Shown piece after piece: positions 1,252 through 8,463 of a stretch of DNA of 64,000 nt (position 1 is the first letter of the stretch; each line of letters starts with the position of its first letter). This DNA comes from Flavobacterium beibuense (GTDB taxonomy: Bacteria > Bacteroidota > Bacteroidia > Flavobacteriales > Flavobacteriaceae). The stretch covers positions 1 through 64,000 of the forward strand of contig NZ_JUIW01000009.1 of assembly GCF_004151245.1 (NCBI RefSeq). Reading direction: 5' to 3'. A program made the translations under genes and the position numbers. The notes under the pieces are model-generated. The model did not search any database and had not been told where the DNA came from. It saw only the letters and a program-made list of their open reading frames with translations.

Positions 1252-2499
1252 ATGGAAAACATGAAAAAATTAAAAATTACATACCTGTTCCTGCTTTTTT
1301 CAGGAGTGGTAGCTGCCCAGTCAGGGCAAACCGTAAACGAAGGCATACTATATGTAAGCCCGGGAACACTCGTGTCTGTTGAATCGGATTTTGACAACAA
1401 AGGCATGGGCGAGTATGAAAATAATGGAGAAGTTTTGCTTAAAGGCAACTTTAATAATGACGGTATTACAAGCTTTAATCCTGCTTTAGGCGGATATACA
1501 AGGTTTGAAGGATATACTCAGCAGAATATAACCGGCAGCATACCGGCTGACTTTTACAACGTTTTGTTTCGCAACCCAAATCCGCAGCCCGCTTTTCGTT
1601 TGTATGGGGATATTTCGATTAGCGGCAATGCCGATTTTTATCAGGGAATAGTTCAGGATGATATATTTGGGGGAATAATCATATTTGAAGACGAAGCAAC
1701 TCATACCAATACAAGTGATGAAAGTTTTGTTGACGGCTATGCTGTAAAGAATGGCACAACCGACTTTTCATTCCCTATTGGAGACGGCCAATACTACAGG
1801 TATGCTGCTATTTCTGCTCCTGATGATCAGTCATCAGCATTTACAGGTAAGTATTATTTTGAAGATTCCAATGTGCTTTATCCTCATGAAAACAGGGCAC
1901 AGGAAATCGAGATTATAGATAATAGAGAGTACTGGACTATAGATAAGACAGGAGGGGAGGCAGATGTAATGATAACCCTTAGCTGGGATGAATTTACCAC
2001 AACACCATCTGAACTTTTAGTAGAATCAACAGAAGCTATACGTGTTGTGCGTTGGGATACCGAAACAGGCATGTGGGTAGATGAAGGCGGCGTGCAGGAT
2101 ATGTTTGCCAAAACCGTAACTACGCCTGTACACGTTTCAGGATACGGGGTATTTACTTTAGGAAGATTGAGAAAAGGTTATTTACCAACAGAAGATATAG
2201 TTATTTATAACGGTTTAACTCCTGACGGAGATGGTAAAAATGATTATTTCTATATAGAAGGGATAACAAATCATCCGGGTAATACGGTACAGATATACAA
2301 CCGCTGGGGTATAAAAGTGTATGAGACAGCCGAATACGACAGTAACGGAAATGTTTTTACAGGCGTGTCTGCAGGTAGGGCTACACTTTCCCAAAGGGAC
2401 AGGCTTCCTGCAGGTACTTACTTTTATGTAATACAGTATCCGCACAGGGGCACAACTATTAAGAAATCAGGTTATTTATATATAAGCAGTGCAGATTAA
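1252..2499 (+). CDS. Secreted protein with T9SS type B (gliding motility-associated) C-terminal domain
   Basis: A 415-residue protein with an N-terminal signal peptide (MKKLKITYLFLLF, ending near AAQS). An internal ATG at 1261 may be the true start, as it places the Lys pair at the N-terminus. The middle is beta-rich with no family I can name. The last ~95 residues form a type B sorting domain: YNGLTPDGDGKNDYF, then IYNRWGIKVYE, then LPAGTYFYVIQY and a final GYLYI strand. In F. johnsoniae, type B domains (SprB) need a PorP/SprF-like partner for secretion, and such a gene follows directly here. It probably works with the preceding adhesin as one surface system. Confidence 0.85.
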   Translation: MENMKKLKITYLFLLFSGVVAAQSGQTVNEGILYVSPGTLVSVESDFDNKGMGEYENNGEVLLKGNFNNDGITSFNPALGGYTRFEGYTQQNITGSIPADFYNVLFRNPNPQPAFRLYGDISISGNADFYQGIVQDDIFGGIIIFEDEATHTNTSDESFVDGYAVKNGTTDFSFPIGDGQYYRYAAISAPDDQSSAFTGKYYFEDSNVLYPHENRAQEIEIIDNREYWTIDKTGGEADVMITLSWDEFTTTPSELLVESTEAIRVVRWDTETGMWVDEGGVQDMFAKTVTTPVHVSGYGVFTLGRLRKGYLPTEDIVIYNGLTPDGDGKNDYFYIEGITNHPGNTVQIYNRWGIKVYETAEYDSNGNVFTGVSAGRATLSQRDRLPAGTYFYVIQYPHRGTTIKKSGYLYISSAD

Positions 2500-2500
2500 G

Positions 2501-3445
2501 ATGAAGAAGGAAATAAACAAGATGAGAAAGATGTCTGCAAAAAGAATTGTAGCAGTATTTGCACTTATGGCTTGCAGCCTGGCAAATGCACAACAGGATC
2601 CGCAGTATACACAGTATATGTATAATACTATACAGGTTAATCCTGCCTATGCGGGGTCCAGAGGAAAAACAAGCATATTTGGTATATACCGTGCACAATG
2701 GGTAGGACTTGAAGGAGCTCCGACAACTGCAGCAGCTTCGGTAAATGCACCCGTAGGAAATAAGCTGGGGTTGGGATTGTCATTTGTTAATGACAGGATT
2801 GGCCCTATGGACGATAATGCCATATCAGTAGACTTTTCATATACTATTGATGTGTCTTATAACTATCAGCTGGCTTTTGGTTTAAAGGGGACGGCAGATT
2901 TACTGAATATAGATTTTACAAAGCTTAATATTTATAATCCGGATGATCCTGGATTCCAAAATAATGTAGATAACCAGTTTTCACCAAATTTTGGTGCCGG
3001 TGTATTCCTTTATTCTGATAATACTTATTTCGGGGTATCGGTGCCTGATTTTTTGGAAACAAAACATTATGAGCATAATACCACATCGGTAGCTAAAGAC
3101 AGGATGCACTATTATTTTATAGGTGGCCATGTGTTTGATCTTACATACAACCTTAAGTTTAAGCCGGCCGCTATGGTAAAGGCAACAAAAGGTTCTCCGC
3201 TACAGGCAGATGTTTCGGCAAACTTCCTGTATGATGAAAAGCTTACACTAGGTATGGCCTATAGATGGGATGCCGCTTTGAGTGCCTTAGTGGGCTTTCA
3301 GGTAACTAAAGATGTTTTTGTTGGGTATACCTATGATATGGAAACAACAAGATTAGCAGAGTATAACTCAGGATCACATGAAATCTACCTGCGTTTTGAG
3401 TTGGTTAAGAAAAATGAAAAAGTAGAAAACCCACGATTCTTTTAA
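2501..3445 (+). CDS. PorP/SprF family type IX secretion membrane protein
   Basis: Family hallmarks follow the signal peptide: QQDPQYTQYMYN, NPAYAGSRG and a QWVGLEGAPTT block, then regular amphipathic strands of an outer-membrane barrel and a closing EIYLRFEL strand. About 314 residues is normal for the family. A GTG at 2489 overlaps the upstream gene. ATG 2501, 1 bp after the upstream stop, or ATG 2522 (MRKMSAKRIVAVF) is the likelier start. SprF-type proteins assist secretion or surface retention of type B cargo, and here the cargo gene is directly upstream. It has a paralogue at 33601-34533 in the second cassette. Confidence 0.92.
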   Translation: MKKEINKMRKMSAKRIVAVFALMACSLANAQQDPQYTQYMYNTIQVNPAYAGSRGKTSIFGIYRAQWVGLEGAPTTAAASVNAPVGNKLGLGLSFVNDRIGPMDDNAISVDFSYTIDVSYNYQLAFGLKGTADLLNIDFTKLNIYNPDDPGFQNNVDNQFSPNFGAGVFLYSDNTYFGVSVPDFLETKHYEHNTTSVAKDRMHYYFIGGHVFDLTYNLKFKPAAMVKATKGSPLQADVSANFLYDEKLTLGMAYRWDAALSALVGFQVTKDVFVGYTYDMETTRLAEYNSGSHEIYLRFELVKKNEKVENPRFF

Positions 3446-3453
3446 ACAGTACG

Positions 3454-5337
3454 ATGAGGATATTAAAATATACAGGATTACTATTTATACTGTTGCTTAG
3501 TTGTTTTCAGGCTACTGCACAAAGACAGGAAATGAAAAAGGCTAAGATTCAGTTTGATAATTATGCCTATAGTGATGCTTTAGAAATTTACCTTGAGGTG
3601 GCAAACACGGGTTACAGGTCTATAGAACTGTATGAACAAATAGGGGATGCCTATTATTTTAAAGGAGAGCTTGATTATGCTTATCAGTGGTATAATAAAC
3701 TGTTTAACCTTCATAAGGAGGTAGAACCCGAATATTACTACCGTTATGCTCAAACATTAAAGTTTGTGGGTAATGCAGATGAGGCTGATAAGATGATGAA
3801 TAAGTTCTCTGAACTTAATTCGGATGATCTTAGGACTAAAATGTTTTTGGATAATAAGGATTATCGTAAACAGATTGAAGAGAATTCCGGCAGGTATGAA
3901 ATAAAGCCAATGGAAGTAAACTCTAACTTTTCTGATTATGGGTCTGCATTTTATAAAGATAAAATTGTTTTTGCCTCATCCAGAGATACAATTAATAATA
4001 AGAAGAAACGTGGACGTGTTGACCGATGGACAAATGAAGGATTTACAGGCTTATATGTAACTCCTGCAAAGGAAGATGACAGCCTTGCAGGTAAAGTGGA
4101 GAAGTTTTCGTTAAACCTTGATACCAAGTATCATGAGTCGACTCCTGTGTTTACTAAAGACGGAAACACGGTTTACTTTACACGTAACAACTATAATAAC
4201 GGAAAAGTAAAGAAAGACGATCATAACGGGATATTGCTTAAAATATACAGGGCAACATTTAATGGTACCGAATGGACCGATGTAACGGAACTGTCTTTTA
4301 ACAGTAATGATTACAGTTGTGCACACCCTGCATTAAGCGCAGATGAAAGGACACTTTATTTTGCCTCAAATATGCCGGGAACCTACGGTAGGTCTGATAT
4401 ATACAGGGTGAGTATTAACGGGAACGGCAATTTTGGAATGGCAGAAAATTTAGGGCCAGGCATTAATACCGAAGGCAGGGAGAGTTTCCCTTTTGTCTCG
4501 GATACAGATGATCTTTATTTTGCATCTGAGGGGCATCCCGGACTCGGCGGACTGGATATTTTTGTGAGTAAGATGGAACCTGACGGTAATTATATTAAAG
4601 CATATAATGTAGGCAGGCCTATAAATAGTGAAAGGGATGATTTTGGACTAATATATAATGCAGTTGAATCCCAAGGTTTTTTTACCACTAACAGAAAAGG
4701 CAACGATGATATATACAGGTTTAAAGAAATTGAAGAATTTGCCTACGAGTGTAAAGAGAAACTGGAAGGTATATTAAGAGAAGAAGGAACTGGAAGGGTG
4801 CTAGCCAATACTAAAGTGTTAGTTATTGATGAGAAGAAAAAAGTGACTCAGGAAGCAGTTACGGATATTGACGGAAACTACTCTTTTGAGGTGGATTGTG
4901 GTAAGCAATATATTGTGAAGGCAGACAGGGCTGAGGAAGCTCTTGCGCAGAACGAAGTAAAGAAAGGTTCCGATTTAGGTAAGGTGTTTAATATACAATA
5001 CATCTACTTTGATTTAGGTAAATATGAAATTAAACCGGAAGCTGCAAAAGACCTTGATAAGCTGGTTGCTTATATGAAGCAAAATCCGAATATGAAGTTG
5101 GATGTAAGGACACATACCGACTCCCGGGCATCACATAAGTACAATCAGGTACTTTCTGATAAGAGGGCAAATTCCATTATTGCCTATATAATTGATCATG
5201 GTGTGGAAGCATACCGTGTAGGAGGTAGGGGATATGGAGAAACTCAATTATTAAGCAAATGTCCTGATGGTGTAATATGTAGTGAGGAGCAGCACAGGCT
5301 AAACCGCAGGTGTGAATTTATAATAACTGAAATGTAA
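3454..5337 (+). CDS. PorE-like OmpA family protein (TPR, beta-propeller, OmpA)
   Basis: A 627-residue protein with a signal peptide (cleavage near ATAQ). It has TPR-like helices (about 25-140), WD40/PD40-type propeller blades (about 150-430; repeated HPALSADERTLYFAS and FPFVSDTDDLYFAS strands), a small carboxypeptidase-regulatory-like beta domain (about 440-500), and a C-terminal OmpA domain (about 515-627) with the peptidoglycan-binding THTDSR motif and a closing NRRCEF. This domain order is that described for PorE of the type IX secretion system. It starts 8 bp after the PorP/SprF gene and probably shares its mRNA. A peptidoglycan anchor for the partner barrel is inferred. It is a paralogue of 34545-36488. 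Confidence 0.88.
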   Translation: MRILKYTGLLFILLLSCFQATAQRQEMKKAKIQFDNYAYSDALEIYLEVANTGYRSIELYEQIGDAYYFKGELDYAYQWYNKLFNLHKEVEPEYYYRYAQTLKFVGNADEADKMMNKFSELNSDDLRTKMFLDNKDYRKQIEENSGRYEIKPMEVNSNFSDYGSAFYKDKIVFASSRDTINNKKKRGRVDRWTNEGFTGLYVTPAKEDDSLAGKVEKFSLNLDTKYHESTPVFTKDGNTVYFTRNNYNNGKVKKDDHNGILLKIYRATFNGTEWTDVTELSFNSNDYSCAHPALSADERTLYFASNMPGTYGRSDIYRVSINGNGNFGMAENLGPGINTEGRESFPFVSDTDDLYFASEGHPGLGGLDIFVSKMEPDGNYIKAYNVGRPINSERDDFGLIYNAVESQGFFTTNRKGNDDIYRFKEIEEFAYECKEKLEGILREEGTGRVLANTKVLVIDEKKKVTQEAVTDIDGNYSFEVDCGKQYIVKADRAEEALAQNEVKKGSDLGKVFNIQYIYFDLGKYEIKPEAAKDLDKLVAYMKQNPNMKLDVRTHTDSRASHKYNQVLSDKRANSIIAYIIDHGVEAYRVGGRGYGETQLLSKCPDGVICSEEQHRLNRRCEFIITEM

Positions 5338-5356
5338 AACTGGAGAACAGCAGCAT

Positions 5357-5664
5357 AAATAGTTTTTTGTGGGGATAAACTCTTATGCTGTCTGTAACTT
5401 CAGTAAAAATAAAAGCACGGCTTTTAAGTTTCATAGTGGGGAAGCTTAAAAAACAACCGTTTGCTTTCGATAATTAGGTGTTCGGTTAATTGGTTTTGGT
5501 AAACAGAATTAAGTTTTATTGTGGGGATAGACTTTAACCTGTAAAAACAATTTAGAATACACAATTATCAAAAGGAGTGCAATAGTATTTTTTAGTTTTA
5601 ATAGTGGGGATAAACTTCTATACTAAAGCCTCCTTAGGGCCTTGTGAAAACAGGGCCCTTTTTT
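5357..5664 (+). ncRNA. Candidate structured RNA / 3' UTR: four GUGGGGA-loop hairpins plus terminator
   Basis: Four copies of AGTTTY-N2..4-GTGGGGA(T)ARACT lie at 5361-5381, 5426-5447, 5511-5534 and 5594-5617. In each copy the flanks can pair (AGTTT with AAACT) and present GUGGGGA in the loop. Copies 2 and 3 replace an A-U pair with a G-U pair, so pairing is kept. The array ends in the strong terminator at 5637-5664. It follows the PorE-like gene by 20 bp with no clear promoter, so it is either a 3' UTR or a small RNA made from it. Repeated GGA loops recall CsrA-sponge RNAs, but no CsrA is known here. The function is unknown. Confidence 0.35.
5637..5664 (+). terminator. Rho-independent terminator of the first adhesin cassette
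   Basis: A nine-pair stem GGGCCTTGT / ACAGGGCCC (one G-U pair) closes a GAAA tetraloop and is followed by six T. It ends transcription running from the adhesin cassette through the hairpin array. Confidence 0.9.
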
Positions 5665-5751
5665 ATTTATAATGTAAGGTGAGAGAGCCAAATATAATTT
5701 TTTTTAATTAATTGGTATGTTAAGTTTTTAAAATCCAGTTTTTTAATAAAT

Positions 5752-5780
5752 AAAAAGGCAGTCAAAAGACTGCCTTTTTA
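5752..5780 (-). terminator. Rho-independent terminator after thx (works on both strands)
   Basis: GGCAGTC-aaaa-GACTGCC is flanked by A5 on one side and T5 on the other, just beyond the Thx stop codon on the minus strand. Confidence 0.85.
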
Positions 5781-5783
5781 TAA

Positions 5784-5900
5784 TTACTTCTTAGAGGTTT
5801 CAGTTTCGCCTGATTTAGCTTTTTTTTCTTTTGGGCGCCTTACTCCATAAGATCCACGCCAAATTTTACCTCTTTTAGTTTTGATGTCTCCTTTTCCCAT
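5784..5900 (-). CDS. 30S ribosomal protein Thx (bTHX)
   Basis: A 38-residue, very basic protein that begins [20 protein letters not shown] and then RRPKEKK. This matches the Thx family (small peptide stabilising the head of the 30S subunit, widespread in Bacteroidota), which typically starts MGKGDxKTxRGKIxxGxYG. The tail (residues 28-38) is acidic/polar. It lies 49 bp downstream of the P-type ATPase in the same direction. A perfect 10-bp inverted repeat and a TAAATTTG box sit just upstream, suggesting its own promoter. A terminator follows the stop. Confidence 0.93.
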
Positions 5901-5949: not shown

Positions 5950-8463
5950 TTAAATGCCGGGTCCGGTATTTTTTAATCGCTTTATCCACTTTACAATTTC
6001 AAACCATATAACCGAGATGAATCCGGCAAGTATGCTTAGCCCAAGTAAAGAAATTGAAGGTGTACTGAATTCAAAAAACTTAACCAACGGATCGACATAC
6101 AGTAGTAAAGAGGTTAACAGGATTGTTATGCCTATTATTAAAGGAATAAGTCTGTTTTTATAGGTAAACGATTTGATAACCGAATAATAAAAAGAACGGT
6201 TAACCAAGGTTAAGAATACGTTTGCCGATATAAGCGTAACAAAAACAAGAGTACGTACATGCGATTCAGTAAGGTCAAAGGAAACAGCATAAAGATAAAT
6301 TCCTAATGTTCCTGCCGTTATGGCTAACCCCTGAATTATACTGGTGGTAAGCTCTCCTATATTAAAAAATGTAGAGGTAAACGGCCTTGGCTTTTGGTTC
6401 ATGGTGTTTTTTTCCATAGGTTCATTTTCATAAATAATAGAGCATGTTGGTCCCATAATAAGTTCAAGGAATATTACATGTACAGGAGAAAAAATGTTAG
6501 GATAAACCCAGCCCAATACTAATGGTACAGATACCGTAAGTATAATAGGTATATGAATGGAAATAATGTACTGAATGGCCTTTTTAAGATTGGTATATAT
6601 TTTTCTGCCCATACCAATGGCATCAACCATTTTGGCAAGATCATCATCAGGTAAAATAAGCGAAGCAGCTTCTTTAGCAATTTCGGTTCCTTTTTTACCC
6701 ATAGCAATACCAATGTGCGATGCTTTTAGTGCAGGTCCGTCATTAACACCGTCACCGGTCATCGCCACTACCTGATTACAGGCTTTAAGTGCATTGATTA
6801 TTTTGAGTTTGGCCTCAGGGAACATACGGGTAAAAATAGCTGTATGCATTACCTTTTCCTTTAACTCTTCGTCAGAGAGATGCATTAATTCCTCTCCGCT
6901 AAGGGTTTTGTCATAATCCTTAAAGCCTATCTGTTTGGCAATGGCTGCGGTTGTAAGGGCATTGTCTCCGGTAACAATTTTTATATCAATGCCGGCATTG
7001 TAAAATGCATTGAAAACGTCATTAATGTTTTTCTTCGGAGGGTCGTAAAAAGCAACTATGCCATCAAAGGTAAAGTTTAGATCCTGCTGATTTTTAGGGA
7101 AATCATTTCCGCTGAATTCCGTATGGCCCACACCTAAAACCCTAAAACCATCCTTTGCCAGATTTGATATGGTTTCGTTAACTGCTGCAATCTCACCTTC
7201 TGATAAGCCTGATACCTTCATCATAGCTTCGGGAGCACCTTTTGCGGCTATTACCCTGTTACCGTTAGTGTCTTCAAAAATATGAGTCATCATTGGTGGT
7301 TTGCCACCCAGCGGATATTCATGAATCATTTTGAAATTCGGCCTTATGTCATTATCCGTTAAGTCAGCATAGGCCTTATGTAGTGCAACTTCCATAGGGT
7401 CGAAAGGAATAGGTTCGCTGGCCCACATGGCATAAGTAATCAATTCGTTTTCTTTTTCAGAAAGATTGTTTTCAGGATTTGATATGAATAATGAAGGAAA
7501 AGCTGCGACACGGGCTAGGGTCATTTTATTTTCGGTAATGGTTCCCGTTTTGTCGGTACATATTACTGTAGCGCTGCCTAACGTTTCTACAGTTTTCATC
7601 TGCTTTACTATAATGTCCATTTTCATGAGCCTCCAGGCGCCTAATGCCATAAATGTAGTAAAGGCAACAGGAATTTCTTCGGGAAGTATACTCATGGCAA
7701 GTGTGAGTGACTTTAAAAGGCTGTCGATAAAATTGCCGGAGTTTATGTAATTAAATACCCATACCGCTACAAAAACAACAGCTCCCAGTATTACCATCTT
7801 TTTTACAAAGTTGGCAATCTGTTTTTCAAGGGGTGTCTTTTCAGTGCTGATATCTTCAAGACTTTGGCCTATTTGCCCCAGTTTTGTAGATTTTCCTATG
7901 GCAGTAACCTTAACTACCGCCAGTCCTGTAGTTACTATGGTTCCGCTGTAAACAATATTATCTTCTTTGTTTTCGTCTTTGGAGACAGGAAATGATTCTC
8001 CTGTAATAACCGATTCGTTAACCGAAAAATCATTGGCCTGCACTATGGTTCCGTCAGCGGGTATGGCAGAACCTTCCTCAACAATCATGAGGTCATCAAT
8101 AACAAGATCTTCGTTGTTAATGGTTTGTTCTTCCCCGTTTCTTATCACCTTGCAGTGAGGACGGGTATAATCCTTAAGTTTTTCAAGAGCATTCCTGCTT
8201 CGGGATTCCTGGTATAGTGAAATGGTAGCTACCAGCAGTATGGAAGCTGCCATAAAAATACCGTCACCAATATCGCCGCTTATAAAGTAAATGGATGCAG
8301 CTACAAGCAATAAAATAATCATGGGCTCCTTGACAAGGTCTTTGAGCGCCATGATTATTTTATTTTCTTTTTTAAATTGTATTGAATTACTGCCGTGGCT
8401 TTCTCTGGATTGTTGCACCTCTTGGGAGGTTAATCCTTTTAGGCCAAAGTACTTTTGCTCCAT
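5950..8463 (-). CDS. Cation-translocating P-type ATPase (P2-like)
   Basis: An 837-residue ion pump of the inner membrane that couples ATP hydrolysis to cation transport. Visible landmarks are the actuator TGES (154-157), the phosphorylation site DKTGT (Asp304), the hinge TGDGVND near residue 570, and about eight to ten membrane segments including an N-terminal pair (about 45-85) and a C-terminal cluster. The N-terminus (LTSQEVQQSR..GSN) is the cation-ATPase N domain. The fourth membrane segment reads PEEIP (261-265) where SERCA-type pumps have PEGLP. The ion is therefore not certain: Ca2+-like by overall layout, but Mg2+, Mn2+ or another cation is possible. Its own promoter candidate is at 8482-8509. 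Confidence 0.85.
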   Translation of the reverse strand: MEQKYFGLKGLTSQEVQQSRESHGSNSIQFKKENKIIMALKDLVKEPMIILLLVAASIYFISGDIGDGIFMAASILLVATISLYQESRSRNALEKLKDYTRPHCKVIRNGEEQTINNEDLVIDDLMIVEEGSAIPADGTIVQANDFSVNESVITGESFPVSKDENKEDNIVYSGTIVTTGLAVVKVTAIGKSTKLGQIGQSLEDISTEKTPLEKQIANFVKKMVILGAVVFVAVWVFNYINSGNFIDSLLKSLTLAMSILPEEIPVAFTTFMALGAWRLMKMDIIVKQMKTVETLGSATVICTDKTGTITENKMTLARVAAFPSLFISNPENNLSEKENELITYAMWASEPIPFDPMEVALHKAYADLTDNDIRPNFKMIHEYPLGGKPPMMTHIFEDTNGNRVIAAKGAPEAMMKVSGLSEGEIAAVNETISNLAKDGFRVLGVGHTEFSGNDFPKNQQDLNFTFDGIVAFYDPPKKNINDVFNAFYNAGIDIKIVTGDNALTTAAIAKQIGFKDYDKTLSGEELMHLSDEELKEKVMHTAIFTRMFPEAKLKIINALKACNQVVAMTGDGVNDGPALKASHIGIAMGKKGTEIAKEAASLILPDDDLAKMVDAIGMGRKIYTNLKKAIQYIISIHIPIILTVSVPLVLGWVYPNIFSPVHVIFLELIMGPTCSIIYENEPMEKNTMNQKPRPFTSTFFNIGELTTSIIQGLAITAGTLGIYLYAVSFDLTESHVRTLVFVTLISANVFLTLVNRSFYYSVIKSFTYKNRLIPLIIGITILLTSLLLYVDPLVKFFEFSTPSISLLGLSILAGFISVIWFEIVKWIKRLKNTGPGI

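Follow-up and report, generated by a model that had tools for sequence, protein, structure and literature searches.

A 64-kb stretch of a Flavobacterium genome (the window; the genome is labelled G000) carries an array of four hairpin arms behind a T9SS-type gene cluster, and it is likely that this array forms part of a trans-acting antisense RNA, encoded in the 3'UTR of the cluster, that represses the translation of two-component genes. The array, its conservation, its predicted structure, its complementarity to other genes, and the position and orientation of the complementary sites are read directly from the genomes. Each of the four arms would display the seed 5'-GUGGGGAU-3' (GUGGGGA in arm 2), which could pair with its complement where translation begins on at least four two-component mRNAs, namely those for a GAF histidine kinase, a LuxR/GerE response regulator, a multi-PAS hybrid kinase and a REC-Hpt protein. 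A start region paired in this way would probably be closed to ribosomes, giving less target protein when the cluster is transcribed. We infer, together with the sign, strength and processing of this regulation, that a stable RNA is produced, that it pairs with and represses its targets in the cell, and that it is freed from the mRNA as a small RNA.

The cluster upstream of the array encodes a repeat-rich protein, followed by PorP/SprF (2489..3445, + strand) and a PorE-like PD40/OmpA protein (3454..5337, + strand). The porE-like stop codon (5335-5337, +) is followed directly by the array RNA (5338..5664, +), and no ORF of at least 60 aa is present between this stop codon and a convergent P-type ATPase gene (5950-8463, - strand). 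A second terminator hairpin (5750-5781) and a 38-aa ORF (5784-5900, - strand), the product of which we take to resemble the small ribosomal protein bTHX, lie downstream of the array. The Bacteroidota promoter consensus is TTTG-N16-22-TAnnTTTG, and no match to it occurs in 4901-5700. Given this result, and the fact that arm 1 starts at the stop codon, the simplest source of the RNA would be the mRNA of the adhesin/PorP-SprF/PorE cluster itself, processed or not. The conserved, structured stretch runs from the porE stop codon to the terminator, in support of the "regulatory 3'UTR" that was one of two functions suggested in the original prediction.

GTGGGGA is found at positions 5369, 5436, 5521 and 5604 (+ strand), at the intervals of 67, 85 and 83 bp given in that prediction, and these are its only copies in the window when both strands are counted. 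The heptamer by itself is not rare, with 4.38 copies expected per window; the longer pattern AGTTTN{3,6}GTGGGGA is observed four times versus a shuffle mean of 0.06, and four copies were reached in 0 of 100 shuffles. The predicted fold of the 327-nt region 5338-5664 (-98.7 kcal/mol, z -5.8, equalled by 0 of 100 shuffles) consists of four long arms, each carrying the motif at its tip, followed by the terminator. These arms occupy 5339-5635 on the + strand, beginning directly after the porE stop: arm 1 spans 5339..5404 (seed 5369-5375), arm 2 spans 5412..5467 (seed 5436-5442, 3' arm AAGCTT), arm 3 spans 5469..5569 (seed 5521-5527) within a 20-nt inverted repeat (5464-5483/5555-5574), and arm 4 spans 5572..5635 (seed 5604-5610). 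An intrinsic terminator hairpin (5636..5659, +) and a T run complete the structure. The array of four AGUUU…GUGGGGA hairpins between the porE-like stop (5337) and the terminator (5636-5659) is therefore real, and the short stem originally described does exist, although it makes up only the end of an imperfect stem that is longer. Similarly, the proposed ARACT 3' arm holds generally but not for copy 2, which reads GTGGGGA-AGCTT and yet still pairs with AAGTTT. Arm 3 is taken from the fold of the whole array RNA and is not the minimum fold of a short piece taken by itself; arm 4 has a competing fold in the short piece, and also in F. beibuense and F. rakeshii. In the window RNA, the heptamer is unpaired with a mean probability of 0.70-0.88, its last G and A often being paired in the predictions. 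The heptamer is less exposed in the other clade, the unpaired probability of arm 4 being 0.30 in both F. beibuense and F. rakeshii and that of the partly hidden arm 2 seed being 0.45 in F. rakeshii, and keeping all four loops open in these two species costs 7.5-7.7 kcal/mol. Two loci of the window's own genome (L318 and L323) have short, terminator-like hairpins that read ATCCCCAC…GGGGAT and are followed by a T run.

Arrays are present in four species, these being G000, a second member of the same genus (G153), F. beibuense (G024, locus L038) and F. rakeshii (G421, locus L039), which are close relatives that form two pairs. The array of G024 is 73% identical to that of the window. All 16 GUGGGGA loops are intact across the four species, as anticipated for an invariant loop, while the stems and the terminator diverge; the GNRA cap claimed for the terminator is not conserved, its loop being different in G153, F. 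beibuense and F. rakeshii. Compensatory change in the stems, which had also been proposed, is borne out in part, in that the layout is kept but formal covariation is limited: RNAalifold analysis of the four sequences, with an alignment that is imperfect around arms 2 to 4, gives 72 pairs of which only seven show two-sided compensation. Nevertheless, the RNA of each species takes the same general layout when folded singly, and this agreement among models is better structural evidence than the RNAalifold covariation.

When 398 Flavobacterium genomes were searched under strict filters with a sequence-only model (R1), clustered strong matches were seen only in G000, G024 and G153 among the matches listed, and matches of E 0.012 or weaker were seen in at least 229 further genomes; other genomes may possibly have clusters that are weaker or fell outside the list. 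Inspection of 27 of these weak loci (L044-L070) revealed GTGGGGA near the match in 26 cases and an array in none. Only one locus (L055) has two copies of GTGGGGA, and these are within a 424-codon frame. At three others, in genomes G177, G335 and G416 (L049, L054 and L061; no array), the single motif has an identical context, TCTATTTTGATTGTGGGGAAACT. Searching 60 relatives by pattern returned matches that are mostly scattered and at about the control level, and cross-species matches located inside frames of 1003 aa and 511 aa were set aside as coding. The array does not follow every PorE-like gene, a point that the original prediction had raised for checking. PorE homologues matched at E <= 1e-180 in 81 of the 398 genomes, and 30 loci were taken, three of which had too little flank; an array is present in three of the 27 checkable flanks, all from array species, and the other 24 have no GTGGGG within 340 nt downstream.

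The link to two-component genes is provided by the lone good R1 match in G000 and G153, which lies between two tandem genes for GAF histidine kinases. Read on the mRNA strand, this match is the loop complement GGAGUUUAUCCCCACACAAAAAACUC, which belongs to the second kinase's leader and can itself fold as a hairpin. The corresponding leader in F. beibuense and F. rakeshii reads AUUCCCAC, so that pairing is kept via G·U. The loop complement AU[C/U]CCC[A/G]C precedes four two-component genes in 4/4 species, the first base of the complementary 8-mer being 12-35 nt from the ATG in these four main families, and departures from AUCCCCAC (C to U, A to G) retain pairing as G·U wobbles. We listed every TATYCCCAC site in the four genomes, left out the array sites and classified the 121 that remained (30 in G000, 26 in G024, 31 in G153 and 34 in G421). 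Under a strict rule, by which a leader site must lie outside frames of at least 120 aa on either strand and have the ATG of a frame of at least 100 aa within 45 nt, 17 of the 121 are leader sites in the pairing orientation (three in G000, five in G024, four in G153 and five in G421), none is a leader site in the opposite orientation, and 104 are not leaders. Two leader calls made under a looser rule (L150 and L246) were dropped because they are located inside longer frames.

These 17 sites belong to six gene families. The GAF histidine kinase and the REC-GerE LuxR-type response regulator have the complement in the leader in all four species. TATYCCCAC precedes the multi-PAS hybrid kinase in three species, with AUCCCCGC replacing it in G000, and it precedes the gene directly downstream, encoding the REC-Hpt protein, in two species, AUCCCCAC being present there in all four. 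An outer-membrane barrel and a metallophosphoesterase (two of the four species each) are weaker candidates and, like an FAA hydrolase found in the window's genome, are possible targets on the basis of their leader sequences. In a second search, exact AUCCCCAC was sought 4-34 nt before an ATG in G000 and G024, yielding 46 rows (29 and 17, respectively), several per site and three of them from the reverse strand of the array. Eight of these are true leaders, six of which belong to two-component genes: those of the GAF kinase, LuxR regulator, REC-Hpt protein and FAA hydrolase in G000, and those of the LuxR regulator, PAS kinase, REC-Hpt protein and barrel in G024, where one row (C61:116709) was judged from the earlier site classification. 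A 1006-aa, sensor-kinase-like frame with a histidine-kinase match (L289, 2554-5574, - strand) converges with the LuxR-regulator gene.

The same sites might instead be DNA elements, with TATCCCCAC acting as a transcription-factor operator at two-component promoters and the array holding spare copies. The leader sites do lie near start codons, a position that promoters with short 5'UTRs share, but an operator would not account for an orientation bias of 17 to 0, for substitutions that are compatible with G·U pairing, or for array copies that are placed downstream of genes at the tips of conserved RNA arms. In addition, the REC-Hpt site lies inside an operon, in the gap of 42-52 nt that separates this gene from the hybrid kinase, and this location argues for RNA rather than promoter DNA. 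We therefore regard the operator explanation as very unlikely.

In G000 and G024, the best-arm duplexes with these four families have predicted energies of -16.6 to -27.6 kcal/mol, the GAF kinase duplex being the strongest and that of REC-Hpt the weakest. Pairing to the REC-Hpt leader is only modestly stronger than that to shuffled leaders (z -2.1 and -2.4), the shuffles preserving base composition only. The GAF-kinase leader may offer a further mode of contact, because its complement lies in a hairpin loop of its own with the same stem letters, and a loop-loop kiss could form and spread to approximately 14 bp. This arrangement lends some support to a different outcome of pairing, in which the targets are activated, or in which target mRNAs titrate the array so that the operon mRNA is the regulated party, since the leader hairpin that holds the GAF-kinase site lies ahead of the start region and opening it could act either way. 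Against this, 4 nt separate the end of the REC-Hpt site from the ATG, and pairing at such a place should block initiation; we consider activation or titration improbable compared to repression of translation.

Several observations define how the target signal is to be read. The share of sites in leaders is 13/53 for exact TATCCCCAC versus 4/68 for the one-wobble form TATTCCCAC, with a p value of 0.007 that pools related genomes and so overstates independence. TATYCCCAC is not enriched genome-wide (33 sites vs 48 for the reversed pattern in G000), and the signal thus lies in where the sites fall and not in how many there are. The binomial values use a chance rate of 1.8% for leaders, an estimate that takes 40 nt per leader and about 3,300 genes, a gene number that is itself estimated rather than counted. 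Because the array species are close relatives, sharing of sites is explicable by descent alone, and across these four species, in which the seed is invariant, there is no two-sided co-variation of seed and target. TATYCCCAC is absent from the 110 nt before LuxR-regulator homologues in array-less genomes (0/27, loci being obtained for 27 of 31 genomes) and from the 110 nt before GAF-kinase homologues in such genomes (0/5). These missing sites would fit a functional array/target pair. Among genomes in which no array was seen, G156 has AUCCCCGC before its LuxR-regulator homologue (L269), and G141 has CCCCAC about 39 nt before its GAF-kinase homologue (L127).

Conserved complementarity to four gene families in 4/4 species is what is generally expected of a trans-acting base-pairing sRNA. 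Four exposed, identical seeds that are complementary to sites before start codons constitute a redundant-seed antisense layout, perhaps implying a four-seed hub in which the 3'UTR sets the GAF kinase, the hybrid kinase with REC-Hpt, and the LuxR regulator together, at least one contact being of the kissing type, so that the surface machinery dampens a sensory phosphorelay. We give this fuller scheme about an even chance of being correct. The probable effect of the RNA is lower production of a set of environmental sensors; if so, expression of the T9SS/adhesin cluster would be tied to two-component signalling via its own 3'UTR. To our knowledge, the base-pairing RNAs characterized in flavobacteria are few. 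The single locus described here yields an RNA, a seed, and a short, conserved list of targets in one functional class, and the proposal is therefore testable with a few reporter fusions.

Comparison with known RNAs bears on the other function raised in the original prediction, namely that the GGGGA loops titrate a CsrA-like or other RNA-binding protein. In CsrB and RsmZ RNAs, which bind CsrA, hairpins with GGA loops recur. The array has repeated GGA hairpin loops and a terminator, as such a sponge would, but CsrA (PF02599) is above the cut-off in none of 40 genomes, the window's own included, with one match below it (G051), and Rfam CsrB gives no match over the hairpins. The presence of conserved, one-orientation loop complements at two-component start regions also argues against titration, because a protein sponge does not predict complementarity of this kind. 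A protein sponge is therefore very unlikely, although a helper RNA-binding protein (for example, of the RRM type) might possibly act alongside pairing. More generally, Rfam gives no matches at gathering thresholds in the 64-kb window; permissive settings give 32 sub-gathering matches in 5300-5800, mostly over terminators and none credible. Among the matches listed in a search of open-licence PMC titles and abstracts, none describes the array RNA.

The array is not a member of the αr14, CcsR, FopS or CsrB families, each of which shares some of its features. Excerpts of the report on CcsR1-4 of Rhodobacter sphaeroides describe four RNAs that lie downstream of a protein gene, are co-transcribed and are closed at the 3' end by a Rho-independent terminator (PMC10253847). 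On that description, the array is similar in having four units behind a protein gene and a terminal terminator, and differs in that CcsR1-4 are four processed sRNAs behind a DUF1127 gene, the gene upstream of the array encoding a PD40/OmpA protein. The CcsR1-4 seed reportedly differs from that of the array, and the host is a different one. FopS of Bacteroides thetaiotaomicron, according to the excerpted text, is encoded by 14 separate genes that provide redundant copies of one seed and block translation near start codons, each RNA having an unpaired seed at its 5' end and a single terminator hairpin and the targets being SusC-like transporters (PMC11697453). The array appears to share with FopS a Bacteroidota host, seed redundancy and start-codon sites, whereas it carries its seeds at the tips of four hairpins and not on a single-stranded 5' end. 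Rfp18 of Flavobacterium psychrophilum is presented in the portion of its report available as a structured RNA, widely conserved in the genus and linked to metalloproteases, with a third stem-loop predicted to pair with several mRNAs (PMC9723704); compared by description only, both it and the array are structured flavobacterial RNAs with predicted multi-mRNA pairing. By analogy, the nearest known kind is NfeR1/αr14 of alpha-rhizobia, for which the excerpted report describes three hairpins with an identical unpaired motif, differing stems and redundant seeds, and silencing of the two-component ntrB mRNA at its translation-initiation region (PMC10746234). As far as this description goes, NfeR1/αr14 has the anti-Shine-Dalgarno seed CCUCCUCCC, which is not present in the array sequence, where GUGGGGAU is found instead, and the array further differs in its four arms, its Bacteroidota host, its location in a T9SS-cluster 3'UTR and the lack of detected homology. 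The likeness lies in several hairpins that present one shared unpaired motif on diverged stems, the motif being partly hidden here in arm 4 of two species. If our reading is correct, the rhizobial design of many hairpins with one seed would extend to Bacteroidota, where the seed is unrelated and is not an anti-Shine-Dalgarno.
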